Positions 17,569 to 51,889 of a stretch of DNA of 64,000 bases are shown here, in pieces. Made by a program: the position numbers and the translations under genes. This stretch comes from Blastococcus aurantiacus (lineage in GTDB: Bacteria; Actinomycetota; Actinomycetes; Mycobacteriales; Geodermatophilaceae), in NCBI RefSeq assembly GCF_900102425.1, contig NZ_FNBT01000010.1, positions 124,001-188,000 of the forward strand. The letters run 5' to 3'. The notes beneath the pieces were generated by a model. It searched no databases, was not told the origin of the DNA, and worked only from the letters and a program-made list of their open reading frames with translations. Within the stretch, counting starts at the first letter, position 1, and the number at the start of each line of letters is the position of its first letter.

Positions 17569-18291
17569 GTGGTGACACAGACTTGGGGCGTGCCGATCGA
17601 GGCCGACCGAGCGCTCAACCTGCCGGTCGAGCAGGTAGCCCTGCATCTGCTGCGGCGCTTCCAGAGAGGGGGAGACCAAAACCGTCGCAATTTCCTAATC
17701 GGTGCTGGCAATTCCTACAGGGAGAACGGTCTCAAGGGAGACCAGGCCGACGCGGTCCTGCGCGCACTGGCGGAGGCGTACGACTGGCTGATCCTTCACG
17801 GGTTGCTGTCCGGGAAGCCTCCTCAGCAAGACTGGCTGTTCATCACGCGCAAGGGCATCGCGATCCTTGGGGCGCCGGACGGCCTTGCGCTGCTCCGAGC
17901 CGAGGCCAGGCTCGAGGTCGATCTGCACCCGAGCATCGCTGCCCGCGTACGCGCCCAGTTCCTGCTCGGCGAGTACGAGCTGGCTGCCTTCGCTGCGATG
18001 CGGCAGGTGGAGATTCGCGTCCGCGAACTGGCTAGTGCGGATGCCGGCGATCTTGGCGTGCCGCTGATGGCCAAGGCGTTCCGGGACGGTGGCCCGCTCG
18101 CGGACACCAACAGCGAGCGTGGTGAACAGGTGGCCATGATGAACCTGTTCCAGGGTGCGATTGGGGTGTTCAAGAACCCGTCGAGTCATCGGCAGGTCGA
18201 CTACAGCGACCCCACCCTCGCCTCGGAAGTGGTCCTGCTGGCCGACCTGTTACTCCGGATGCTGGACGCGAGGTCCGAGCTTCGTGGCTGA
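17569..18291 (+). CDS. TIGR02391 (Ymh) family protein with N-terminal helical/wHTH-like part
   Basis: A 240-residue protein. Residues about 1-100 look like a small helical or winged-helix domain (ADAVLRALAEAYDWLILHGLL, DWLFITRKGIAIL). Residues about 118-235 match the TIGR02391/Ymh pattern: LHPSIAARVRAQFLLGEYE, EIRVRELA, LMAKAFRDGGPL and the ending GAIGVFKNPSSHRQV. Members are widespread in mobile elements and near defence genes; their biochemical activity is not established. The start is GTG at 17569 (a second GTG follows at once). It overlaps the next gene by eight bases, so the two form a pair. Confidence 0.8.
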   Translation: MVTQTWGVPIEADRALNLPVEQVALHLLRRFQRGGDQNRRNFLIGAGNSYRENGLKGDQADAVLRALAEAYDWLILHGLLSGKPPQQDWLFITRKGIAILGAPDGLALLRAEARLEVDLHPSIAARVRAQFLLGEYELAAFAAMRQVEIRVRELASADAGDLGVPLMAKAFRDGGPLADTNSERGEQVAMMNLFQGAIGVFKNPSSHRQVDYSDPTLASEVVLLADLLLRMLDARSELRG

Positions 18292-19335: not shown

Positions 19336-22300
19336 CTAGCGGGAGTGCGGCAGCCCAAGCGGTGTGGCATGCGACAACTGTCTCGCATGACCTGTCCGGT
19401 GAGGATTCTCGGAAGGGGACGTCAACCGGGACACCCGCCCCGGACTGGCCGTGGTCACGGCGTTCATCGGTTCGGTGTTCAGCACGGCCCTGTGGACGCT
19501 GCCCACGGGCACACCAAGGGTTTCAGTGACTCGATCGATATGTGCCAGCCGCCGGGCTGGTGGTGCCGCGACGATGACGGCTGCCGCGTCGAGCACTGCC
19601 GCCTGGAGGGCCGAAGCATCTCCTTCGCTCTGGGGCCGGGCGAGGCGGACGTCAAGAAGGGCGTCGGCGAGACTTTCCGAGGTCTCGATGGCCGCGCGCA
19701 GCGCGACGGCGCCGTGGCGGAAAAGGACGTCAGCCGGGTCGAGGCCGTCCGGCACGGCCAGCCGGCGTGGGTCGTCGCCGCGGGCGGTCAGTTGCCAGTA
19801 GATGCGCTCGGCGGCCCGGTGCCCGGCGGCATCATGGTCAGTAGCCACGAGAATGCCGGGATTGCTCTGGCAGATGTGGGGGAGGAGCAGGTCCGCCTGG
19901 CGGTCGGTGAGGGCTGTGCCGAGGACGGCGACGCCGACGGTCCGTCCGTCGCCAGCGAGGGTGACGGCGAGGGCATCCAGCGGTCCTTCGACAAGAGCGG
20001 GGATAGCGCCGGTGCTGAGTGCAGCCCGGTTCTCGTGGAGCCCGAGCAGGTGCTCGCCCTTGCGGTAGAGGTCGGTGGCGGGGGTGTTGAGGTACTTCGG
20101 TCCGGCGTGGTCGTGGTCGGTGGCGGTGGGGTTGCGCCGGGCGATGAACCCGACGACCGCGCCGCCGAGGTCGTGGATAGGGAACACCAGCCGATCGCGG
20201 AACCGGTCGATCAGCGTCCCGGTGCGGGCGCGCTGGGCGAGGCCGGCGGCGAGCAGCTCGGTGTCGGTGGCGCCGGACGCGCGCAGGAAATCGGCGAGGG
20301 CGGTCCAAGCAGCGGGGGCGTAGCCGGGGATGAATCGCTGGTCTTCGATGAGGTCGGTGGCCAGCCGCTGGCGTAGGTAGTCCGGCGCCCACGAGTTGGG
20401 GTAGCGGTCGGCGTAGAAGGCGGCCGCTTGGGTGTTCAGCTCGACCAGGCGTTCACGGCCGACGACTGCGGTGGCCCAAAAGTGCTGCTCGAGCAGGTAG
20501 TCCGTCTCATCGACGGCTGGCTCGCCGAGTGCGAAGGGGTCGGGGGTGAAGTACCGCGCTTCGGTTGGCGACGGTTCGTCGTCGGGGTCCAGGGGTTCTG
20601 CGTCGACGTCGGACGCGCCGGTCCAGACGGTGCCGGTGAGGGCTGTGGTGTCCGCGGCCGGGGGGAGCAGGTGCGCGTCCTCGGGTGGCTGCAGGTCGGC
20701 CGCTAGCGGCTCGGGTGCCTGCACGGGCTCAGGGTCGGTGAGGGCGGCGATCCGGAAGACCAGCGCTTCGGCAAGTTCGATTCCGGTCCGATCGTGGGCA
20801 GCGGACGGCGAGCCGGCGACCGCGGCCGTGAGCAGGTCGGTGGGGGACCAGCCGTCGCGGATGCCGTTGGTGACCGCAGCCACCAGGGCCGGCCAGGCGG
20901 GGGTGGTCAACAAGCGGTGCCCGAGTCCGCCAGGCAGCAGATCCAGCAGGGTGGCGCACCAGTCCGGGCGCAGCACAGTCCTGTCCTGTCCGGCGGCGAC
21001 GGTCGCCGGGGCGAGGTGCGGGGTGAGTCGCCACCACAGGGCCGCGGCCGGCAGCTCGTCGGGCAGCGCTCGCTGTGCGGCCACCGCGGCGAGCAGCCCG
21101 GCGGCGTCGAAGCCGGCGCGGTCGGTCGCGGTAAGCCGCTCGGACAGGGCAGGCCAGTGCGGATCACGGCGCACGCGGGGGTCGATGCTGTCGGCCAGCC
21201 TTACCCACACCGAACCGCCGACCGCGGGGACGGCGGCGGCCACCGCGTCCTCGAGCCGCTGCTGGTACCGGCCTTCGGCGGTTGCGGGCTGAGGCGGGCC
21301 GGTCGGGCGCCGGTCGCTGTCGGGGACGGCGAGCGCAGCGCGCCAGACGGCGAGCTCGGCTCGCAGGGCACCGTGGTGGGGGATCAGCAGCTGACAAGCC
21401 CAGCGGGGTGCGTTGGCGGATGTCATCGCGGCGGCGGTGTCGGCAACCCGGGTCGCGCAGGCGGTGACGTGGCTGGCGCGGGCGGCGAGGTAGGGCCCCC
21501 ATTGCGGATCGTCGGCCAGCGTCGTCGGCGTGCCGGGCAACCACGGCAACGGCCCCGCCGGCCCGGAGCCGGGGATGTCCAGCCGCCAGTCCAGGACGGC
21601 GGCGGGATCCCGGGCGCCGGTCAGTGCCCGGTCGGCTGCCGCCGTCCCCAAGGCGGCGATGGGGTCCGCGCCGCCGACGGCGAGCAGCGCGAGATGCCCG
21701 TGCAGCGTGGGCCAAGCCGGGGCCGCGGTGAGCCCGGGATGGAGCTGCTCGGCGGCGTCCTTCAGTGCCTCTGCAGCCGTTGCGCCCAGGCGGTGCGCGG
21801 CGGCGAACCGCAGCGCGTCGGCATATCGGGCAGCTGCGAAGTGCAGTTGTTCGGCCGGGTCGGCCAGCGCACGGCGGGCGCCAGTGGCCGAGGTCTGGGC
21901 GCCGTCGCGGTCGAGCATGGCGATCAGCAGATCGGCGGCCGTCGGTGGGGAGACCCCAGCAGGGGTGACGATGCTGTGCGGATCGCCGTCCCCGACGGTG
22001 GCCAGGTACAGGTGGTTCGCGGTGCGGCCGCGGGAGATTGAGACGTAGAGCAGCTGTCGGCTCTCGCTGCCGGTGAGGACGGTGTGGCAAGTGTCGGCGG
22101 TGACGCCCTGAGCGCCGTGCACGGTGGTGGCGTACCCCAATTGCACGTGCTCGGCGACGTAGTCGACGGGGAGGATGGTGCGCCGCCCGCTGCCGGTGTG
22201 GGTGACGGCAAGGGCGCCACCCTCGCGCACGGCGGTGATTGTCCAGCGGTCGCCGTTCTTCACCCAGTCCGCGGCGCCCAGCGGCAGTCGTCGGTCATTG

Positions 22301-24825
22301 GCGCGGGTGATGATCCGGTCCCCGGCGCTCGCCCGGGTGCCGTCGGCCAGTGCCACCTCTTGGCCAACCGGTTCACTGAGGGAGGCAAGTCGGTCGCTAC
22401 GGGCCCGCACGTTGAGTGCAGCAACGCTCTCGCGGGAGGCGGCCAGCAGCAGTGCGTCGACGCCGCGGACCCGGTTGGCGGCCCAGGCGGCGTAGGCCTG
22501 CTCCTCGCACGTGGCGGCGTCGCCGACGTGCACCCGCCCGGCGTCGAGGTAGAAGCCGACGGCGGTGCTGTCACCGTCGCGGACAGCGACGGTGGCCGCG
22601 GCCTCGGCCGGATCGGTGAAGCGGACCAGCTGAGTGAGGCTGACGGCTCCGTGGGTGGCGGCAATCTCGGCCAGCACGCCGCCGGCGGCGACCGCCGCCA
22701 GCTGCCGGTCGTCACCGACCAGCCGTACTGACCCGCCCCTCCCCAGAACGTGGTCGACGGCGGCGGCGAGGTCGAGAGTGCCGGCCATCCCCGCCTCGTC
22801 GACGATCACCAGCGTGTCTGGGCCAATCTCGGCGACCCAGTTTGGCTGGCCTCCGGAGTTCAGCGCCCACACCAGTTTGGCCACGGTGTCGCAGGGGCCG
22901 CCGACGGCCTCACGGAGCTGGGCAGTGGCCACCGCCGACGGCGCCAGACCGAGCACCCTGCCGCCGCTGGCAGTCCAGGCCCTGGCCGTTGCGGCCAGCG
23001 CGGTGGTCTTGCCCGTACCGGCCGGGGCGATAGCCAGCTGCACCCGCATGCCGCTGCCAGCGAGGTCCCGCACGAGCTGAGCCTGGCCGGGGTTGAGTTT
23101 CGTGCCGTTGGCGACGGCTTCCAGCAGCGCCAGCTCGACAAGGGCCGGGTCGGCACGGCGACCGTCGTGGTGGCCGGCGGCGGTCACCAGCCGCGCTTCG
23201 GCGTCCAGGACCGCGCGGGAGGTGTAGAGCTCCGCGCCGGCGACCGAGTACACGCTGGCCCCGTCCGAGCGGCGCAACTCCAGCGGTTCAACGATGGGAT
23301 TCAGTTGGCCCAGCGGGGTCGACAGGGCGGGGGAGAGCGCCCAGGCGGTAACTCGGGTGACGGCCGTGTCGACGTCGTCCGGGGCGAGCGCGGCGGCTCG
23401 CGCCACCCTCTCGGCCTCAGCGCGCACGTGCCAGTACTGCCAGGTCGCACGCTGTCCGCTCACGGTGCTCAGCACCTGGGCCGCGGCCGACTGGACCCAC
23501 GTCGTCGTGAGCCCCTGTACGGGGGGCGACGGCGGGGGCGCCAGGGCGCGGTCGAGCATGCCGGACAGGCGCAGCCCGTCACCGAGGACGGCGAGCGCCT
23601 CGCGCCGCCACGTCGCCCGCTGCTCGGCCAGTGAGCGCGGCTCGTGTTTGGCCTCCCTGGTTTCCAGCGTCGCCCGCTGCGCCAGAGCGATGGCCTCGGT
23701 CGTGGTGGGTGGCCGGTGGTGCTCACGTTGAAAGTCGGCGGCCAATGCGCCGCGGCGGACGTCGATCGCTCGCCGCCGGGACGACCACATCATCAGCAGC
23801 GCGGAGTCGATGCCGACGATCTCGCGGACCGGCCGCTTGCCGACCTCTCTATTTGGGCGCTCGGCGAACCCGACCCCGAGGCGGGCAATCAACTCGACCT
23901 CCAGCCGGGTGTTGTACCGCTCCGACGCAGCAACGTTGGCCTTGTGCAGCACCCGCCCGTCCAGCGCCCGCCACTGACCTTCGCGGGTCTGCACCTTGTT
24001 ACTGACCGCCACGTGCGTGTGCAGGTCCGGGTCGCCGGAGCGGGAGTCGCGATGGGTGAACACCGCCGCAACGAGTCCGGTGGTCTCCACCTGGCGTACC
24101 CCACCGGCTCCTAGCCGGGTGAAGGCAGCCCGCTTCTCGAGCCAGCGCAGGGCATCGGCGACCGCCGCTGCGTGCGCAGCCTCAACCCGTTCGGCGACCC
24201 CACGGGGCGCGAGCGCCCACAGCGTCGACACCGACTTAACCGGGGAGAACGTCAGGTCCCACCCGGCCACCGCCTGGGTCGCCGGCCGTGAGGCCTGGGC
24301 AACGAAGCCCGACAGCTCACGGGCGTCCGCCGGCGGACGCCCATACGCGGCGGCGAACAGTTCGCGGGCGATTTCGCTGCGGACCCGGGCCCGTTCCGCC
24401 GCCGGCAAGGGGACGTCGCGCTGCAGCCCGCGCTCGGCGTTGACGACGGCGAACGCCTGCGCGCACTGCGCCCGGAAGCCGTCAGGGGAAATGGCGTAGA
24501 CCAGGAACGGCAGTCCTAGCGCGCCGGCGGCCCGGGCCTCGGCCGGCGCCGCGCCGGCAGCCAACGCCTCCCTTTCCAAGCGTGCCGCGTTGGGATGGCG
24601 GCCCTCGCCGAAGAGAGCCGTCATCTGCTCCTCGCCGACGGCCTGCCCGGTCACGAGCCCGGGGAGCCCGGCCAAGCCTTCGCCGGCCCACACACCGGGC
24701 GACTCGCCACGCTGGGAGTAGTAATCACCCAGCCCCACCGAGCCCCGCTCGGTGGCGTCCAGCGCTGCTACCTGGCGCGTGAGGTAGGTGTAGCCGTCGC
24801 CCGCTGTCAGCTTGTGCAGGGACAT
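19336..24825 (-). CDS. MobF relaxase - RecD-like helicase - DnaG-like primase fusion
   Basis: A 1,829-residue protein. Residues 1-350 are a TrwC/TraI relaxase: Tyr residues near 12-14 (GDGYTYL), and the metal site HRDSRSGDPDLHTHV with three His. A RecD/TraI-type helicase follows with Walker A APAGTGKT at about 600 and Walker B VIVDEAGMAG near 675. Residues about 1000-1430 hold several helical repeats ending in W(R/W)L. Residues about 1450-1790 are a DnaG-like primase core with Toprim motifs (LVEGPLDALAV and TDHDAAGHRAAERI). It would nick oriT, pilot and unwind the strand, and prime synthesis in the recipient. ATG at 24825 was chosen over GTG at 24828. The gene is convergent with the accessory pair and faces away from the transfer operon. 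Confidence 0.92.
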   Translation of the reverse strand: MSLHKLTAGDGYTYLTRQVAALDATERGSVGLGDYYSQRGESPGVWAGEGLAGLPGLVTGQAVGEEQMTALFGEGRHPNAARLEREALAAGAAPAEARAAGALGLPFLVYAISPDGFRAQCAQAFAVVNAERGLQRDVPLPAAERARVRSEIARELFAAAYGRPPADARELSGFVAQASRPATQAVAGWDLTFSPVKSVSTLWALAPRGVAERVEAAHAAAVADALRWLEKRAAFTRLGAGGVRQVETTGLVAAVFTHRDSRSGDPDLHTHVAVSNKVQTREGQWRALDGRVLHKANVAASERYNTRLEVELIARLGVGFAERPNREVGKRPVREIVGIDSALLMMWSSRRRAIDVRRGALAADFQREHHRPPTTTEAIALAQRATLETREAKHEPRSLAEQRATWRREALAVLGDGLRLSGMLDRALAPPPSPPVQGLTTTWVQSAAAQVLSTVSGQRATWQYWHVRAEAERVARAAALAPDDVDTAVTRVTAWALSPALSTPLGQLNPIVEPLELRRSDGASVYSVAGAELYTSRAVLDAEARLVTAAGHHDGRRADPALVELALLEAVANGTKLNPGQAQLVRDLAGSGMRVQLAIAPAGTGKTTALAATARAWTASGGRVLGLAPSAVATAQLREAVGGPCDTVAKLVWALNSGGQPNWVAEIGPDTLVIVDEAGMAGTLDLAAAVDHVLGRGGSVRLVGDDRQLAAVAAGGVLAEIAATHGAVSLTQLVRFTDPAEAAATVAVRDGDSTAVGFYLDAGRVHVGDAATCEEQAYAAWAANRVRGVDALLLAASRESVAALNVRARSDRLASLSEPVGQEVALADGTRASAGDRIITRANDRRLPLGAADWVKNGDRWTITAVREGGALAVTHTGSGRRTILPVDYVAEHVQLGYATTVHGAQGVTADTCHTVLTGSESRQLLYVSISRGRTANHLYLATVGDGDPHSIVTPAGVSPPTAADLLIAMLDRDGAQTSATGARRALADPAEQLHFAAARYADALRFAAAHRLGATAAEALKDAAEQLHPGLTAAPAWPTLHGHLALLAVGGADPIAALGTAAADRALTGARDPAAVLDWRLDIPGSGPAGPLPWLPGTPTTLADDPQWGPYLAARASHVTACATRVADTAAAMTSANAPRWACQLLIPHHGALRAELAVWRAALAVPDSDRRPTGPPQPATAEGRYQQRLEDAVAAAVPAVGGSVWVRLADSIDPRVRRDPHWPALSERLTATDRAGFDAAGLLAAVAAQRALPDELPAAALWWRLTPHLAPATVAAGQDRTVLRPDWCATLLDLLPGGLGHRLLTTPAWPALVAAVTNGIRDGWSPTDLLTAAVAGSPSAAHDRTGIELAEALVFRIAALTDPEPVQAPEPLAADLQPPEDAHLLPPAADTTALTGTVWTGASDVDAEPLDPDDEPSPTEARYFTPDPFALGEPAVDETDYLLEQHFWATAVVGRERLVELNTQAAAFYADRYPNSWAPDYLRQRLATDLIEDQRFIPGYAPAAWTALADFLRASGATDTELLAAGLAQRARTGTLIDRFRDRLVFPIHDLGGAVVGFIARRNPTATDHDHAGPKYLNTPATDLYRKGEHLLGLHENRAALSTGAIPALVEGPLDALAVTLAGDGRTVGVAVLGTALTDRQADLLLPHICQSNPGILVATDHDAAGHRAAERIYWQLTARGDDPRRLAVPDGLDPADVLFRHGAVALRAAIETSESLADALLDVRLARPQSEGDASALQAAVLDAAAVIVAAPPARRLAHIDRVTETLGVPVGSVHRAVLNTEPMNAVTTASPGRVSRLTSPSENPHRTGHARQLSHATPLGLPHSR

Positions 24826-25317
24826 CACAGCTGCGGACGCTAGAAACGCGGCCCCCAGTGCCGGTTGCGGAGTTCTCTAGTCGTTGAGGCCTCCCACTGA
24901 GGCCTTCGCGTCGCGGGGACCGCGTTCGATCGCTCCGCGTTCTTCGCGGCGACTCGGCTCTTGCTGGGCCACCCGCCGGAGATGACCGGCGACGGACGCC
25001 CCAGCTAGTGCGTTTCCGCGCTCCGGACAGGACGGTTCTCGGGGGCTACGCCGACAGTGCATGAGGTGTGATGCTCCGTGATCTTGGAGTCTCCGGTGGT
25101 TCCGGCCCTGGGGCCGTCGCTCCGCGAAGGCGTAAAGCGAGCGACGCCTTGCTGGAGAGCCGGCCCAGGTCGGCTTCTCGGTGTCCCTGATGGCGGCTTA
25201 GGGGACACCCGCGGCGCCACGACCGGGCGCTCGTCTGCGGGGACGTGTTCCTTCCTGAGTCAAGCCCACTACACGTTCGACCGGGATGTTCAGTGGCGGC
25301 GTCGTTAACCTCCGTCA
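24826..25317. other. Intergenic region upstream of relaxase, candidate oriT
   Basis: Nearly 500 bases lie between the divergent relaxase and membrane-protein genes. The stretch holds a 13-base-spaced direct repeat TGAGGCCT at 24885-24892 and 24898-24905, a hairpin GTCGCTC/GAGCGAC at 25116-25145 and an inverted repeat GGTGTCCC/GGGACACC at 25180-25209. oriT usually lies beside the relaxase gene and contains such repeats, so this is the best candidate site. No nic sequence could be identified. Confidence 0.4.
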
Positions 25318-28177: not shown

Positions 28178-28930
28178 GTGGACAGAGGTTGGCTCCTGGC
28201 AAGGCTCGGCACCTACGTGGCGATGGTCGACCGCTACCTGGCTCTGCCGCTAGACAGCTACGTCGACACGGTGCGCCGGCGGGAGGAAGCGATGGATTTG
28301 ATTCACCGACAGCACTACACGGCCGCGACCATCGTGAGCCGGGTCAGCCGAGAGCAACTCTCCTCGAATCCGACGCACGAGGCTGTGTATGACAACCGTG
28401 TCGCCGTCCTGCGGGTCATCGGCATGCTCCGAGACCAAGAGGAGCTCGAGGTGCGCCTCGGGCCCGACATGCCGCGGATCCCGCTCGGCGACATGCACCC
28501 GTGGGTCTGGGGCGCCGCCCAGCAGTTCTGGGAGACCACGCACTACCGCGAGGCCGTGCACGCTGCAGCCAAGTCCATCAACAGTCGGGTGCAGCAGCTC
28601 GTCGACCGGCGCGACGTTGCCGACAACGACCTGATGAATCAGGCGCTCAGCACCAACGACCCCGCCCCCGGCAACGCCCGACTCCGACTGCCCGGCGACC
28701 AATCCAAGGGCATGGTCAAGGGCCAGCAGCAGGCGCTGAGGGACTACGCCGCCGGCTGCTTCGGCGTCATCCGCAACCCCGCCGTGCACGACGCCGATGA
28801 TTGGTTAGAGCAGTACGCGCTCGAACGCCTCGCCGCCCTCAGCGTCCTTGCCAGCATGATCGAGACCACCACCGTCGTCCGTGCCGCCGAGCCGGTTGTG
28901 GGCCCCAACAGTGCACCTGGTGGGCGGTAG
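28178..28930 (+). CDS. TIGR02391 (Ymh) family protein, second copy in window
   Basis: A 250-residue protein from GTG 28178. The N-terminal 105 residues are helical. Residues about 108-225 carry the full TIGR02391/Ymh signature: MHPWVWGAAQQFWETTHYRE, AAKSINSRVQQLVDRRDV, LPGDQSKGMVKGQQQALRDY and the hallmark GVIRNPAVHD. The family is linked with mobile elements and suspected of a role in phage conflict, but no activity is known. It is not close in sequence to the copy at 17569, so the two were acquired separately or diverged long ago. It lies 175 bases ahead of an XRE-ImmA module. Confidence 0.82.
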   Translation: MDRGWLLARLGTYVAMVDRYLALPLDSYVDTVRRREEAMDLIHRQHYTAATIVSRVSREQLSSNPTHEAVYDNRVAVLRVIGMLRDQEELEVRLGPDMPRIPLGDMHPWVWGAAQQFWETTHYREAVHAAAKSINSRVQQLVDRRDVADNDLMNQALSTNDPAPGNARLRLPGDQSKGMVKGQQQALRDYAAGCFGVIRNPAVHDADDWLEQYALERLAALSVLASMIETTTVVRAAEPVVGPNSAPGGR

Positions 28931-29000
28931 CCCGAGAGGCTGACGCCCGAGGCCATGACCAGCTGTGACGCCGCGTCGCCAATGATCGTGCGTTGGCCAG

Positions 29001-29100
29001 CTACTTCGCGACGACGTCGCTCCAGTACTGGGACGACGGCCGGCCGACACGCGGAACGTCCGCGGGCTTGCGCAAGGTGTAGCAGACCGGGTAAAAATTT
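29001..29100 (-). pseudogene. 3' remnant of a broken gene at a cassette junction
   Basis: On the minus strand the last 33 codons before TAG read like real protein (NFYPVCYTLRKPADVPRVGR and so on), but the reading frame upstream runs antisense into the next gene and looks random. The change falls at an A/T-rich spot (TAAAAATTT, 29087-29100). It is probably the truncated end of a displaced gene; the family is unknown. Confidence 0.3.
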
Positions 29101-29104
29101 CCAC

Positions 29105-29752
29105 GTGATCGCACACCGCTTCCGCGCTCCGGAGTCCGGGCTCGCTGAGGTGCTCCGGATCGTCCCGGAGCTGCCCTCCTTGGTCGAACACGCCGTGCAC
29201 CGCTCGAACGAGCTCCAGACCGGGATGATGCCGGAGATCGCCGACGCCAGCCTCCCTGACGTGTTCCGCGCACAGCTCGGCCAGGCTCTGGTGGACGCGG
29301 GCGTCGGAGGCGAGGAGTGCCGCTTCGAGCTGGGCATCCGCAACAGCGTGCAGCTCCGGCTCGGTGCCGCCGGCGACGTCGTGGTGCGGGTGCTCAAGAA
29401 GCCCAGGGGTGCGTGCACGCCCCAGCCCCGCAGCCAGGCGAGGGCTCTCGAGTATCACCAGGAGTCCCTCTTCGCGGAAGAGCTGCCAGAGTCCGACGTG
29501 GTCACCGTGGTGTGGACCTGGGGTATGACCCGCACCGGTGACATCGTCCAGCACCTCTTGATGCCGCAGGCTGGATCTGACGAGAGCGACCAGAACGCCA
29601 CGGCGGTCTGGCGGATCGCCGTCATTGACTCGGCGGCCGCCCTCGATGACATCACCGCTGCCGAGGACATTGCCGTCCAGGACGACCTCGATGAGGAGTT
29701 CCGCCTGCGCACCGACGACGCGCGGGAAGAGGACGGGGACGATCCCTCATGA
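29105..29752 (+). CDS. Unknown partner of the XRE-ImmA regulator
   Basis: A 215-residue soluble protein from GTG 29105. It has an N-terminal half with GLAEVLRIVPELPSLVEHAV, a beta-rich middle (RNSVQLRLGAAGDVVVRVLK) and an acidic tail (DDLDEEFRLRTDDAREEDGD). No family is recognised. Its stop overlaps the start of the XRE-ImmA gene by four bases, a layout typical of toxin-antitoxin-like or regulator-target pairs cleaved by ImmA-type peptidases. An A/T-rich block just upstream (TAAAAATTT) may be a -10 region, which would make the message nearly leaderless. Confidence 0.6.
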   Translation: MIAHRFRAPESGLAEVLRIVPELPSLVEHAVHRSNELQTGMMPEIADASLPDVFRAQLGQALVDAGVGGEECRFELGIRNSVQLRLGAAGDVVVRVLKKPRGACTPQPRSQARALEYHQESLFAEELPESDVVTVVWTWGMTRTGDIVQHLLMPQAGSDESDQNATAVWRIAVIDSAAALDDITAAEDIAVQDDLDEEFRLRTDDAREEDGDDPS

Positions 29753-30894
29753 TCTACGGCTCCCGTGTTCGCCAGGCGAGGGAGCTGCGAGGGATGCCCC
29801 AGGGAGAGCTTGCTGCGGCGCTCGGGAAGAGCCCCAGCTGGTTGACCAAGCTGGAGACGAGCGACTCGTCTGCCACGGTCAACCATGACGCCCTGGATGT
29901 CCTCTCAGCTCGTCTGCTCATGCCCGCGGATTTCTTCACTGCCCCCATCCCCGAGGAGCTCGGCGACGGTTCCATGCGCTTCCGTGCTCGCAAGCGCATG
30001 ACAAAGGGCTCCCTCGCTGCGGTGCGACGACGGGCGGAGTTGGCGCACGAGATAGCGCACGTCGTGCTCCAGCACGTTGACGCACCCAGCGCCCGCGTGC
30101 CCTCCCTTCGGGCGACCACCAACATCGAGGAAGCGGCTCAGCAGACACGCGCAGCTCTGTCGATTCCTCCGGACGCCGTGATCCCCAGGCTGTGGAACAG
30201 CATCGAGCGGGCCGGGATCTTCGTCTATGCGATGGAGGACGCGGCCGATGGACTGCTCGACGCGTTCAGCACCTGGACTGGACCAGCTTTGGAACGGCCG
30301 ATCATCGCCATCAGCGAGCACCGCAGCTGGGATCGCGTGCGTCACACGGCCGCCCATGAGCTCGGTCACCTGGTGCTACATCGCAGCGCCAGCTACGACC
30401 CAAGTGGTGGGCTGGACGTGGAGCAAGACGCCAATCGGTTCGCTGGCGCCTTCCTCTTCCCTCGGGATGCCGCGCTCGAGGAGCTTCCTCGACCCCTCAC
30501 TCTCGCTCGACTGGCTCCTCTGAAGCTGCGTTGGGGCATGTCGCTGGGCGCACTGGTGTTCCGGGCACTCGAGCTCGGAGTCATTGACTCCGGCCGTGCA
30601 GCGTCGCTGCATCGTCAAATTGGCGTGCGTGGCTGGCGCACCCGGGAGCCGGGCGCCGACGCCAGAGAACCCGAGAAGCCGCGTGCCCTGCGAAAAATGG
30701 TCGAGTTGGTCTACGGGACGCCCCCAGATGCGCGCGGGCTCGCACGCCACGTGAGGCGGTACACCGCTGACGTCACCCGAGAGCTGGACCGATACGCCAC
30801 GCCACCGGTAGGGCGCCGACCCGCGCCGCGAGTGCCAGATGGACCGGCACACAGCGGGGGCCGGGTGGTGTTCCTCAGCTCACGAAAGACCTAG
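29749..30894 (+). CDS. XRE-family regulator fused to ImmA/IrrE metallopeptidase
   Basis: A 381-residue protein. Residues 1-60 are an XRE helix-turn-helix (VRQARELRGMPQGELAAALG). Residues about 130-290 are a COG2856 ImmA/IrrE peptidase with zinc motif AAHELGHLVLH (H203, E204, H207) and a third ligand candidate Glu225 in VEQDANRFAGAFLFP. The last 90 residues are basic. Such proteins repress or, by proteolysis, relieve repression of a neighbouring gene in phages, conjugative elements and toxin-antitoxin pairs. It overlaps the unknown gene at 29105 by four bases, making that protein the likely partner or substrate. Confidence 0.85.
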   Translation: MIYGSRVRQARELRGMPQGELAAALGKSPSWLTKLETSDSSATVNHDALDVLSARLLMPADFFTAPIPEELGDGSMRFRARKRMTKGSLAAVRRRAELAHEIAHVVLQHVDAPSARVPSLRATTNIEEAAQQTRAALSIPPDAVIPRLWNSIERAGIFVYAMEDAADGLLDAFSTWTGPALERPIIAISEHRSWDRVRHTAAHELGHLVLHRSASYDPSGGLDVEQDANRFAGAFLFPRDAALEELPRPLTLARLAPLKLRWGMSLGALVFRALELGVIDSGRAASLHRQIGVRGWRTREPGADAREPEKPRALRKMVELVYGTPPDARGLARHVRRYTADVTRELDRYATPPVGRRPAPRVPDGPAHSGGRVVFLSSRKT

Positions 30895-34934: not shown

Positions 34935-37298
<2,364 letters not shown>

Positions 37299-49600: not shown

Positions 49601-49807
49601 GAGCTTCGACACGCGCACCTGCAGGGCGTTGCCTGGATTTGCCGGCAAGTCCTCGCCCCAGAGCGAGTCGACCAATGTCGGGACGGCCACAACCCGTCCC
49701 GCAGACAGCGCCAGGAGCGCGAGCAGCTCGCGTTCCCCGCTGCCCGGAACGGGAACGGCGTGCTCCCCGACGACGACCTCGACCGGTCCGAGGAGGCGGA
49801 TCTCCAT
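46601..49807 (-). CDS. SARP/AfsR-like regulator: winged helix, BTAD, NB-ARC-type ATPase, repeats
   Basis: A 1,068-residue regulator. Residues 1-95 are an OmpR-like winged helix (RVSKLRRTMNALGVP), 96-245 the BTAD domain, and an ATPase follows with Walker A TGPGGVGKTSLA (299-306) and LLILDNCEHLADA near 375. The last 450 residues are TPR-like helices. This is the layout of AfsR-type activators of secondary or stress pathways. The ATG has no close start competitor. It is read divergently from the multicopper oxidase gene. A decayed copy of its 3' end is at 43885-44050. Confidence 0.9.
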   Translation of the reverse strand: MEIRLLGPVEVVVGEHAVPVPGSGERELLALLALSAGRVVAVPTLVDSLWGEDLPANPGNALQVRVSKLRRTMNALGVPSSIVITRPPGYLLDIEPRQVDALGFAVVVAEARAAAGGDPSNAADRYRRALSRWRGAALSEFRETRWAGPEAARLMELQLAAQEELIDLEMAAGRHTDVLGELEALTTAHPLRERLHGRLMLALYRAGRQADALAVYQRTRALLDSELGLEPSAELRGLQKAILDQRPDLRAPNRITPARPAPPPGHRLPPRLTSFLGRDDDAERVSALIRDHRLVTVTGPGGVGKTSLAVEVARAATDGFSDGVGFVRLAGLAEEEQVPLAVLAALDVRDVPTATAEDQMLGHLRDREVLLILDNCEHLADACAVLAERLLESCPRLRLLATSREPLAARGEVQASLEPFPVPPADADRSDLGTSTAVRLFVERAQSALPDFRLAEQNAAAVAEICRRLDGIPLALELAAARVAALPVTELAARMEDRFALLTTGPRTAEMRQRTLRSTVDWSYQLLSEPERMLLRRLSVFRGGWTLTAVQSVAGGQGLNPGIVVDTLARLVDRSLVVVDRNSGPRYHLLETIREYAIERLQEASESDIVGRAHVQYLTALAQQAERELRGNGQARWLPRLSMERDDIESGLAWCTAHTASDPDAGLLLVGALGWYWYFASRPDGGGKVAAMLEAAPGGSPSARAHALQALAVAGRPGACIVHPAPECATAAAESRTLFVQLGDDSRAALSATLLAVEDIGADDPEHAFGLLADADQEFHRTDDDWCSALAQFVRMELHAAAGEMVDATLCGERALAVFRALGDQWGASAIQFHLGVALHRAGQLDEALSMYEGALGSGRQVGQANTIQYALAGAGHVTLQLGDGERAARLFAESHKVGRELGADGNARAAVGEGLLARERGDLTEAGAKLTWALHRFAEQSEPAWTSATLIGLGHLGELSGNLDSAEFCHRRAWQTAPGDAAALEGLACVAAARADAATAARLLGTASWWRNRRHRPIARLERVDVQRAENRARALLGDDSYEAAYRAGADEPHALTPELGAAPAGH

Positions 49808-49993
49808 GCCTCACCCTCCAATGACCGGCTGATTTCGCCGGAGCGCCGATTCTCGGCCGTGACGGCACGCGAAACAACGATTCTCGTGCCGGTGTCCACC
49901 GTGCGGGGCCGGCCGACTGCCGCCAGTGGACCGACAGCGTCTGGACAGCGCCCCTCGGCAGCGTCTACACCGACCGACCTGCAAAGGAGACGC

Positions 49994-51889
49994 GTGATCT
50001 CGATCCATGTGCCGGCCATGACTGGACGGCGTTGCGTCCGGGCGATCAGTGCCCGGGTGCACGACGTGCCCGGGGTGCAGACCCTCGAGGTCGACCTTGC
50101 CACCAAGACCATCCACGTGACCGGGCCGGCTGACCCCACAGCGGTGGCTGCCGCCATCGAGGCCGCTGGCTACGCCGTCCAGGAGAGCACCGGCACCACA
50201 TCACCGGCCGCAACAACACCCGCAGGGGGAACCATGGACAACTTCTCCACCGCCGTCGTCGGATTGCCGGGGGTCACCCGGCCGCCGGTGGTCGAACTCA
50301 CCGATGGCGAGTCCTTCCATCTTCAGCAAGGCCCCGTTGCCAAGCAGCTGCGCGGAACGACGGTGCGCATGCTCGGGTACAACGGCTCCGTCCCCGGCCC
50401 CACCATCAAGGTCCGGCAGGGGTCGGAGGTCGTCATCCACGTCACCAACGAGACGGACATCGACACGACCGTCCACTGGCACGGCCTGCGCGTGGAGAAC
50501 AAGTACGACGGCGTGCCGCACGAGACCCAGGAACCCATCCCGGTGGCCGGGAGCTTTACCTATCGCCTGCAGTTCCCCGACCCAGGGCTGTACTGGTACC
50601 ACCCGCACATCCGGGAGGACTACGCGCAGGAGATGGGCCTCTACGGCAACATCCTGGTGGAACCGCTCGACCCCGACTACTGGCCGCCGGCGCATCGCGA
50701 CGTCGTCCTGCCCCTCGACGACATCCTCATCGAGGACGGCGCCATCGCACCGTTCAGCCGCACGGAGACGACCTTCTCGGCCATGGGCCGCTTCGGCAAC
50801 GTGCTGCTCGTCGCCGGGGAGCCAGACCTGGCGCTGACCGCCAGCGCCGGCGAGGTGGTGCGCTTGTGGCTGACCAACACGGCCAACACCCGAGTCTTCA
50901 ACGTGACCCTGCCCGGGGCGCGGATGAAACTCATAGGCGGGGACAGCGGTCGTGTAGAGCGCGAAGAGTTCGTGTCAGAGGTGCTGATCGCCCCTTCAGA
51001 GCGAGCAATCGTCGACGTGTTGTTGGATCGGCCGGGAGAGCTGACCCTGGAGCACCGCACCCCCGACCACATCTACCAGCTGGCGTCGATCAGCGTGACG
51101 AACGAGCGAGCAGCCCCCCCGCTCAGGGACTCGTTCGAGCTACTGCGGCATGCACCTGAGTTCGAGGACGAACGACAGCAGTTGGACGGCTGGCTCGCGG
51201 CAGCTCCGGACAAGATCCTCGCCGCCGTCGCCGAGATGGAGGACCCGTTCGAGGACCAGGCGGCTGGCCCGGTCGCCTACGCGTGTCCGATGCACCCCGA
51301 TGTGGTCCGCGACCAGCCGGGGCACTGCCCGAAGTGCGGGATGAAGCTGATGTCCGCCCACCCCGGGGAATTGGTGGGCGGCCACGACATGGGTCACGCG
51401 ATGTTTTCCGCCGAGCATGTGCCCTCCCATGCTCAGGCCGACGGACACGGCGACGGACACGGCGACGGTGGCGGTGACGGCATCGAGTGGGAAGACGACA
51501 TGGTCGAGATGAACCGCCGCAGCACAACCACGAACATGCGGTGGCGGCTCGTCGACCGGACTGCGGGTAGCGGGGACAGGCCCCCGGTCGATTGGCGCTT
51601 CACCGTGGGGGAGCGCGTGAAGATTCGCCTGGTCAACGAGATGGAGTCCGACCACCCGATGCATCACCCGATCCACCTGCACGGTGCCGGGCGCTTCCTC
51701 GTCCTGGGCCGCGATGGCGTGCCCGAGCGCAACCTGGTGTGGAAGGACACCGTTCTGATGCGCACCGGGCAGACCGTCGACATCTTGTTCGACGTCTCTA
51801 ATCCCGGGCTTTGGATGGCCCACTGCCACATCGCCGAGCACATGCACAGCGGAATGATGTTCAGCTTCACCGTTAAACCACTGAGTTGA
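49994..51889 (+). CDS. Multicopper oxidase with N-terminal HMA-like and internal metal-binding domain
   Basis: A 631-residue protein. Residues 1-65 are an HMA-like domain whose CxxC is degraded: MTGRRCVRAIS has Gly11 in place of the first Cys. Residues about 90-400 hold cupredoxin domains with HWHG and YWYHPHIRED. A heavy-metal-binding YHS-like domain (YACPMHPDVVRDQPGHCPKC) is at about 428-450, then a His/Asp-rich linker, and the last cupredoxin has HPIHLHGAGRF and AHCHIAEHMHSGM with the type 1 copper ligands. It should oxidise Cu(I) or organic substrates. GTG 49994 has an AAAGGAGA site. No signal peptide is seen, odd for this family. Confidence 0.88.
   Translation: MISIHVPAMTGRRCVRAISARVHDVPGVQTLEVDLATKTIHVTGPADPTAVAAAIEAAGYAVQESTGTTSPAATTPAGGTMDNFSTAVVGLPGVTRPPVVELTDGESFHLQQGPVAKQLRGTTVRMLGYNGSVPGPTIKVRQGSEVVIHVTNETDIDTTVHWHGLRVENKYDGVPHETQEPIPVAGSFTYRLQFPDPGLYWYHPHIREDYAQEMGLYGNILVEPLDPDYWPPAHRDVVLPLDDILIEDGAIAPFSRTETTFSAMGRFGNVLLVAGEPDLALTASAGEVVRLWLTNTANTRVFNVTLPGARMKLIGGDSGRVEREEFVSEVLIAPSERAIVDVLLDRPGELTLEHRTPDHIYQLASISVTNERAAPPLRDSFELLRHAPEFEDERQQLDGWLAAAPDKILAAVAEMEDPFEDQAAGPVAYACPMHPDVVRDQPGHCPKCGMKLMSAHPGELVGGHDMGHAMFSAEHVPSHAQADGHGDGHGDGGGDGIEWEDDMVEMNRRSTTTNMRWRLVDRTAGSGDRPPVDWRFTVGERVKIRLVNEMESDHPMHHPIHLHGAGRFLVLGRDGVPERNLVWKDTVLMRTGQTVDILFDVSNPGLWMAHCHIAEHMHSGMMFSFTVKPLS

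Follow-up and report, generated by a model that had tools for sequence, protein, structure and literature searches.

Genes at the locus

The stretch of DNA analysed here, referred to as the window, comprises 64,000 nucleotides of Blastococcus aurantiacus (contig NZ_FNBT01000010.1; G000:C10:124001-188000), and within it we describe two overlapping plus-strand genes at 29105-30894 that very probably form a toxin-antitoxin pair of the RosmerTA type. The upstream gene (29105..29752) encodes a protein of 215 residues, here called the toxin-slot protein or simply the toxin, and the downstream gene (29749..30894) encodes a protein of 381 residues of the XRE-ImmA type, which resembles the RmrA antitoxins of RosmerTA systems; the two genes overlap by 4 nucleotides. 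They are preceded on the same strand by a gene for a 250-residue Ymh-family protein (PF09509; 28178..28930), which is judged to lie outside the unit. All three open reading frames were found at the positions given by an earlier interpretation made from the letters of the DNA alone (the sequence-only reading).

The toxin-slot gene starts with a GTG at 29105, which aligns with an in-frame GTG of a Modestobacter relative described below, and its open frame reaches back to an ATG at 28955. The sequence-only reading had called the protein unrecognised and this is borne out, as the protein (scanned as the longer 265-residue frame) has no match among Pfam, NCBIfam, PADLOC or PHROG models. Comparison of the toxin with solved structures also gave nothing convincing (best E-value 1.1).

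The XRE-ImmA protein as an RmrA-type antitoxin

The protein encoded at 29749-30894 matches 14 RmrA models of PADLOC, the best with an E-value of 6.9e-62, as well as PHROG 2439 (E-value 2.9e-66). Pfam comparison places a helix-turn-helix (HTH) domain, HTH_3, at residues 7-43 (E-value 1.4e-5) and Peptidase_M78 at residues 153-273 (E-value 1.6e-23). The HELGH zinc-peptidase site at residues 203-207 (30355..30369, plus strand) is intact, so that the sequence-only reading, which had named an XRE-ImmA gene with this site overlapping its partner gene, was right in each of these respects; H203, E204 and H207 of the site, together with E225, are invariant among 11 aligned RmrA-like proteins. Against solved structures the protein gave a weak match to CapP (E-value 0.0013), and against NF052239, the spr1629 equivalog model, it scores 113 bits, below the cut-off of 335.

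We note the presence of a second HExxH in the antitoxin, HEIAH at residues 100-104 (window 30046-30060). The antitoxin of the Modestobacter relative likewise has two such sites (HELAH and HELGH), and 53 of 57 RmrA-like loci show one H[DE]xxH only. A second, diverged RmrA-like XRE-ImmA gene is present in the same genome (G000:C13:607178-608104; L065) with its own upstream open reading frame of 198 residues, which lacks QxxLF.

Relatives of the pair

Convincing relatives of the toxin are few. Five of 112 genomes of the family Geodermatophilaceae gave matches, the window included, and three of these are unconvincing (E-values of 0.007-0.009, with 28-32% identity over part of the protein), leaving one other protein with 38% identity and an E-value of 6e-33. 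The same relative was found again on a contig of an uncultured Modestobacter (one of 60 pattern stretches in genome contigs). A search of 396 genomes of the phylum returned the toxin itself alone, none of 27 in viral contigs was a relative, and none was found in phages or plasmids.

In Modestobacter, the toxin relative is followed by an XRE-ImmA gene whose product is 62% identical to that of the window, with the same 4-nucleotide overlap. Judged by this conservation, the 215-residue gene is a real gene and not a chance open reading frame, because another genus has a protein 38-39% identical to its product, followed by an XRE-ImmA protein of 62% identity. The suggestion of the sequence-only reading that the 215-residue protein is the functional partner of the XRE-ImmA protein is thereby made very likely, the pair being kept in Modestobacter; nor is this partner found mostly apart from ImmA genes, as its only convincing relative adjoins one (1/1).

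A promoter-like block is common to both copies and ends 7 nucleotides before the aligned GTG. In Modestobacter it reads TTGACA-18-TAAATT and passes a consensus scan, and in the window it is a putative TTGCGC-18-TAAAAA (29068..29097, plus strand), which fails that scan. This arrangement suggests that the pair is transcribed separately from the Ymh gene, perhaps as a leaderless message. Four inverted repeats lie before the toxin gene in the window and none in the Modestobacter copy, and therefore no shared operator was recognised.

Assignment to RosmerTA

RosmerTA systems are phage defences in which varied toxins (RmrT) are paired with a protease-domain antitoxin (RmrA), the toxin gene coming first in 58% (PMC10440598). 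The sequence-only reading had supposed that the ImmA peptidase acts on an antitoxin or repressor, with the neighbouring protein as its likely substrate or target; in the RosmerTA arrangement the roles are different, since there the XRE-ImmA protein is itself the antitoxin and its neighbour the toxin (PMC10440598). The theme that it proposed is indeed defence-like. Like RosmerTA, the window has an RmrA-type XRE-ImmA antitoxin, a toxin-slot gene directly upstream and overlapping, and a mobile context; unlike RosmerTA, its toxin matches no modelled RmrT family and is known here from sequence alone.

An open reading frame occupies the slot directly upstream of the RmrA-like gene in 54 of 57 loci (window included), 52 of these frames being 198-320 residues long, and the same holds for 28 of 32 loci in further RmrA-like sets and 75 of 80 viral loci. 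These slot frames were found mechanically, and the counts may include some that are not genuine (L012, L022 and L040, for instance). Rows were left out where no upstream frame was present, no RmrA frame was recognised or the contig had too little room (L016, L021, L061, L080, L081, L097, L101, L105, L118, L119, L135, L183 and L195). Of 13 phage and plasmid records, 11 have an annotated gene of 196-252 residues in the slot. PADLOC RmrT models are matched by all 16 members of one slot family and by seven of ten other slot proteins; L028, L100 and the sister of the window toxin, the Modestobacter protein L004, are the three that do not match.

The window toxin matches none of the PADLOC RmrT models even at E-values up to 1, a point against the RosmerTA assignment, and its sister matches none at E-values up to 0.1. 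A first round of hhalign comparisons that lacked viral sequences gave no relative of the toxin, and a family link appeared with more sequences. The profile built from the window protein and its sister then aligned with the family that matches PADLOC model PDLC03939 with a probability of 66% and an E-value of 5.5e-5 in one comparison, the next best family reaching 18%. Similarly, four of the first five other proteins in a search with that profile belong to the PDLC03939-matching family, of which a single protein (E-value 0.0003) passes the inclusion threshold. This family, to which the product of gene 34 of Gordonia phage Opie belongs by its match to the model, is thus the closest profile to the window toxin and has a similar layout, but the window protein does not match the model itself and is only 15-17% identical to two members. 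Since no RmrT model is matched but the closest profile is that of the PDLC03939-matching family, we have placed the pair in the RosmerTA type and treat its putative toxin as an undescribed RmrT-like branch outside the RmrT families described so far. As a separate observation, tyrosine recombinase genes lie directly after the RosmerTA-like pair on mycobacterial, Tsukamurella and Gordonia plasmids (L098, L099, L100, L185).

A clamp-binding-like motif in the toxin loop

The sliding clamp is a ring that keeps DNA polymerase on DNA. Proteins that bind it carry a motif with the consensus QL[S/D]LF, in general QxxLF (PMC12309361), and a similar account is given in PMC4549789. In the openly licensed literature, the report found on Rosmer toxins and the clamp is PMC12795458, according to which RipA, a Rosmer toxin of Streptococcus pneumoniae, interacts with the clamp protein DnaN, and mutations suppressing RipA toxicity map to the hydrophobic interaction pocket of the clamp. 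This pocket is the one bound by clamp motifs (PMC12795458, PMC12309361); the word "motif" itself does not occur in the main text of PMC12795458.

The window toxin has the pentapeptide QESLF at residues 119-123 (29459..29473), within a low-confidence loop of codons 99-131 (29399..29497) that is predicted to lie between two three-stranded parts (AlphaFold model m00ab52ca4cc1). In shuffles of the toxin, QxxLF occurs in position, defined as a relative position of 0.45-0.70 along the slot protein, in 0.5% and anywhere in 2.3%. We find that QxxLF recurs at one loop position across the partners of RmrA proteins, and this recurrence is new here. Among 111 non-redundant RmrA partners (discovery and viral sets, reduced at 50% identity), 26 have QxxLF, 25 of them in position, against a shuffle mean of 0.69 and a maximum of 3 in 200 shuffles. 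The reversed pattern and the ExxLF, KxxLF and RxxLF controls give 0-1 in position among the same partners, and NxxLF gives 4 (shuffle mean 0.8, maximum 4).

In the discovery set, the strict pentapeptide is present in 10 of 82 slot proteins and 0 of 88 RmrA proteins (shuffle 0.6, maximum 4 of 300). A held-out test was made on 63 non-redundant viral slot proteins with the patterns and the position range fixed beforehand; its 181 control frames are mechanical plus-strand open reading frames rather than called genes. The strict pentapeptide was found in position in 5/63 slot proteins, 0/63 RmrA proteins and 0/181 other frames (shuffle mean 0.21, maximum 3 of 1000), and the penta- or hexapeptide in 7/63, 0/63 and 1/181, respectively (shuffle mean 0.4, maximum 3). 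The literature pattern QxxLF, which had not been pre-set, occurs in 15 of the 63 viral slot proteins, in all of them in position (shuffle 0.58, maximum 4), and anywhere in three of 63 RmrA proteins and one of 181 other frames.

Over all 126 non-redundant slot proteins, Q..[LMIF]F is found in position in 37. These fall into ten BLAST-separable families, of which some consist of a single protein and some are remote relatives of one another. The two residues that this pattern leaves free also lean towards the clamp consensus, with L or M at position 2 in 15 of 37 (p = 2e-6) and S or D at position 3 in 19 of 37 (p = 2e-8), the p values being binomial and treating matches as independent. In the largest motif-bearing family (29 proteins), Q is present in 23, L in 20 and F in 20 within an otherwise variable loop, the column having been chosen for the motif. 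In a search for Spr1629 orthologues, none of 12 proteins attains the spr1629 cut-off of 335 bits (best 268.8); the toxins beside the two best spr1629 matches have QLSFN or QLSLN in the loop and not the plain QxxLF.

Structure models

A confident model was obtained for an RmrT protein at locus L138 (16 sequences; predicted local distance difference test score, pLDDT, of 85.6), in which a short strand, three helices and three strands are followed by a helix at 119-133, a disordered segment at 136-147 (pLDDT below 50) and three further strands. Its QSSLF, at 131-135, is modelled where the helix passes into the loop that separates the two three-stranded parts. The poorer model of the window toxin has its elements in the same order. 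Of the 50 matches listed for the L138 model, most are PD-(D/E)XK nucleases, NaeI with a Z-score of 7.2 (3.6 Å, 134 residues), and EcoRV (Z-score 5.6) and Hjc (Z-score 5.0) are also found; Z-scores under 8 may reflect only a common arrangement. Foldseek searches with both models returned nothing at an E-value of 0.001, the best for L138 being 0.045 in the PDB and 0.009 in the viral library. No conserved PD...(D/E)xK set was seen by eye in the alignment of the L138 family. The L138 protein (2327-2989) and its family may present a nuclease-like RmrT scaffold in which no catalytic set is obvious and which could derive from a nuclease that is now dead.

Proposed mechanism and alternative explanations

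Taken as a whole, the best explanation of the locus, with chances a little better than even, is a RosmerTA pair that acts through blockade of the sliding clamp by its toxin. RmrA would repress the operon through its HTH domain and hold the toxin inactive, until infection or stress upsets this control and the toxin is freed. The free toxin would then insert its QESLF segment, carried on a flexible loop, into DnaN's hydrophobic pocket and displace the polymerase, replication would stop, and the infected cell would arrest before phages spread. We give the sliding clamp an even chance of being the target of this particular toxin, and phage defence would probably be the main role of the pair. The wider proposition, that many RosmerTA toxins, including this branch, are sliding-clamp inhibitors carrying a clamp peptide in a disordered loop of a shared scaffold, we regard as equally balanced between true and false; such a group would span up to ten BLAST-separable families, with actinobacterial, Sphingomonas and Clostridioides-phage DNA among its sources.

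Two described systems bear on this mechanism. RipAB (Spr1630-Spr1629) of S. pneumoniae likewise has an XRE-ImmA antitoxin in an operon with the toxin; it is a Rosmer pair, and the sliding clamp is the target of its toxin (PMC12795458). The window antitoxin differs in falling well below the spr1629 cut-off, and the likeness to RipA follows that paper's description only. SocB-SocA of Caulobacter concerns the same clamp pocket as that proposed here (PMC12795458). PMC12795458 reports no homology of SocB or SocA to RipA or RipB, and their likeness to the window proteins is by description only.

Several observations weigh against the clamp mechanism. The motif patterns were first picked after viewing the discovery set, where the loosest pattern separates poorly (20/82 slot proteins vs 12/88 RmrA proteins, shuffle 4.8), and in the held-out set the hexapeptide is weak, with 2/63 in position (shuffle mean 0.22, maximum 3) and, anywhere, 3/63 slot proteins vs 4/63 RmrA proteins. 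QxxLF is present in 10 of 151 RmrA proteins, and QxxLV (5) and QxxLA (6) also occur in position at about three times the shuffle mean, within maxima of 7. Of 22 proteins in another viral set, close to the spr1629 family, 7 have Q..[LMIF]F (shuffle mean 0.47, maximum 6 of 500), but the set includes near-duplicates, both within itself and of proteins already counted, and at 50% identity adds 3 matches in 15 proteins. Where the window toxin has QESLF, its sister has NEALF and lacks the Q of the first position, and the largest slot family has the plain motif in only five of 35 non-redundant members. The window-toxin model, which predicts three helices, three strands, the loop with QESLF and three strands, is poor, being built from two sequences with a mean pLDDT of 50.

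Two more such points, the absence of the plain motif from 89 of the 126 slot proteins and the membrane depolarisation reported for the RosmerTA toxin of Gordonia phage Kita (PMC10440598), which illustrates the diversity of RmrT toxins, also favour a RosmerTA-type pair with another target, such as the membrane or, for a nuclease, nucleic acid. The nuclease variant gains further from the alignment of the confident L138 model with PD-(D/E)XK enzymes, though the low Z-scores and the unseen catalytic set speak against it, and a membrane target fits poorly with a toxin whose maximum mean hydropathy is 1.0 over 19 residues, with no transmembrane-like stretch. Another target is a serious but somewhat improbable alternative. 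The loop motif might instead be the site at which RmrA binds or at which its ImmA domain cuts, cleavage then inactivating the toxin, a view not far from that of the sequence-only reading. All counted motif-bearing proteins are partners of RmrA-like proteins, the zinc site of RmrA is intact, the modelled disorder in L138 would make the loop a plausible protease site, and in ICEBs1 the substrate of ImmA is an HTH repressor (PMC10440598). However, most RmrA partners lack the plain motif, the letters at motif positions 2 and 3 agree with the clamp consensus, for which there is no known reason in a cut site, and the genetics of RipA implicates the clamp pocket (PMC12795458), so that we consider this a real but unlikely alternative.

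Two readings of the locus other than as a toxin-antitoxin pair were weighed and set aside. A switch of the ImmR/ImmA kind known from ICEBs1, which would control transfer of the mobile element instead of killing, would suit the ImmA homology and an element that carries a TraA relaxase and a TraG-like coupling protein, but here HTH and peptidase are fused in one protein, the two genes before the antitoxin have no HTH match (small open reading frames after it were not scanned) and the RmrA models fit strongly; it is disfavoured as very improbable. The sequence-only reading had also grouped the Ymh protein with the pair. A three-gene unit in which Ymh, partner and ImmA act together is consistent with their common strand and with the 174 nucleotides from the Ymh gene to the toxin start, but the promoter-like block, weak in the window, lies between the two. 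Moreover, Ymh is found at 26 places in 23 of 108 family genomes, and RmrA-like proteins at an E-value of 1e-15 in 27 family genomes, yet only at one of the 26 places, that of the window, does Ymh adjoin a detected RmrA, a count that more diverged RmrA neighbours would escape. Five family genomes have both, the other four on separate contigs, and over 10.5 kb around the Modestobacter pair there is no match at an E-value of 1e-3 to either Ymh protein of the window. We have therefore rejected Ymh as a third component, a role hardly to be expected on these counts; by its distribution, Ymh is a neighbour and not part of the pair.

Neighbouring genes and the surrounding element

The Ymh-family protein at 28178-28930, which contains GVIRNPAVHD, matches Pfam PF09509 (Hypoth_Ymh) with an E-value of 2.7e-26 and 92.2 bits (cut-off 25), and scores 29.7 bits against TIGR02391, under the cut-off of 39.45. 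Its description in the sequence-only reading as a clear TIGR02391 protein holds as to the Ymh family and is slightly too strong as to the model itself. Solved structures gave nothing convincing for it (best E-value 0.025), and no mention of TIGR02391 was found in the openly licensed literature. Of the two Ymh proteins in the region, the first (window 17569-18291) is about 25% identical to this second one over 129 residues, and both match PADLOC PD-Lambda-3_B at low score (E-values 9e-8 and 1.3e-5).

Both pairs lie near a gene for a TrwC-type TraA relaxase. In the window, this is a minus-strand gene (19336-24828) for a TraA-type protein of 1830 residues, with TrwC relaxase, AAA_30 helicase, DnaG-like N-terminal and Toprim domains; in Modestobacter, a TraA relaxase gene whose product is 59% identical to that of the window begins about 315 nucleotides after the antitoxin gene. 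Upstream of the Modestobacter pair, on the other strand and on the side where the window has Ymh, is a gene for a CAP12-type TIR protein (CAP12/Pycsar-type; L008 2751-4340, minus strand), a defence-island setting. Metal-related cargo is also present in the window, namely an open reading frame at 34935-37298, taken by eye for a P-type metal ATPase, and, at 49760-51889, a multicopper oxidase that has heavy-metal domains.

Implications

RosmerTA systems are common in defence surveys, but a target is known for only a few of their toxins. With a motif from which the target of many of them could be predicted, the single case of RipA and DnaN would become a testable rule that names the residues to mutate, and the clamp reading would tie RosmerTA to a recurring theme of clamp-attacking toxins. 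For the locus described here, an "unknown protein plus peptidase" becomes a specific and testable hypothesis. If the wider proposition on RosmerTA toxins is true, the attack of RipA on DnaN would be the rule among such toxins and not a pneumococcal oddity.

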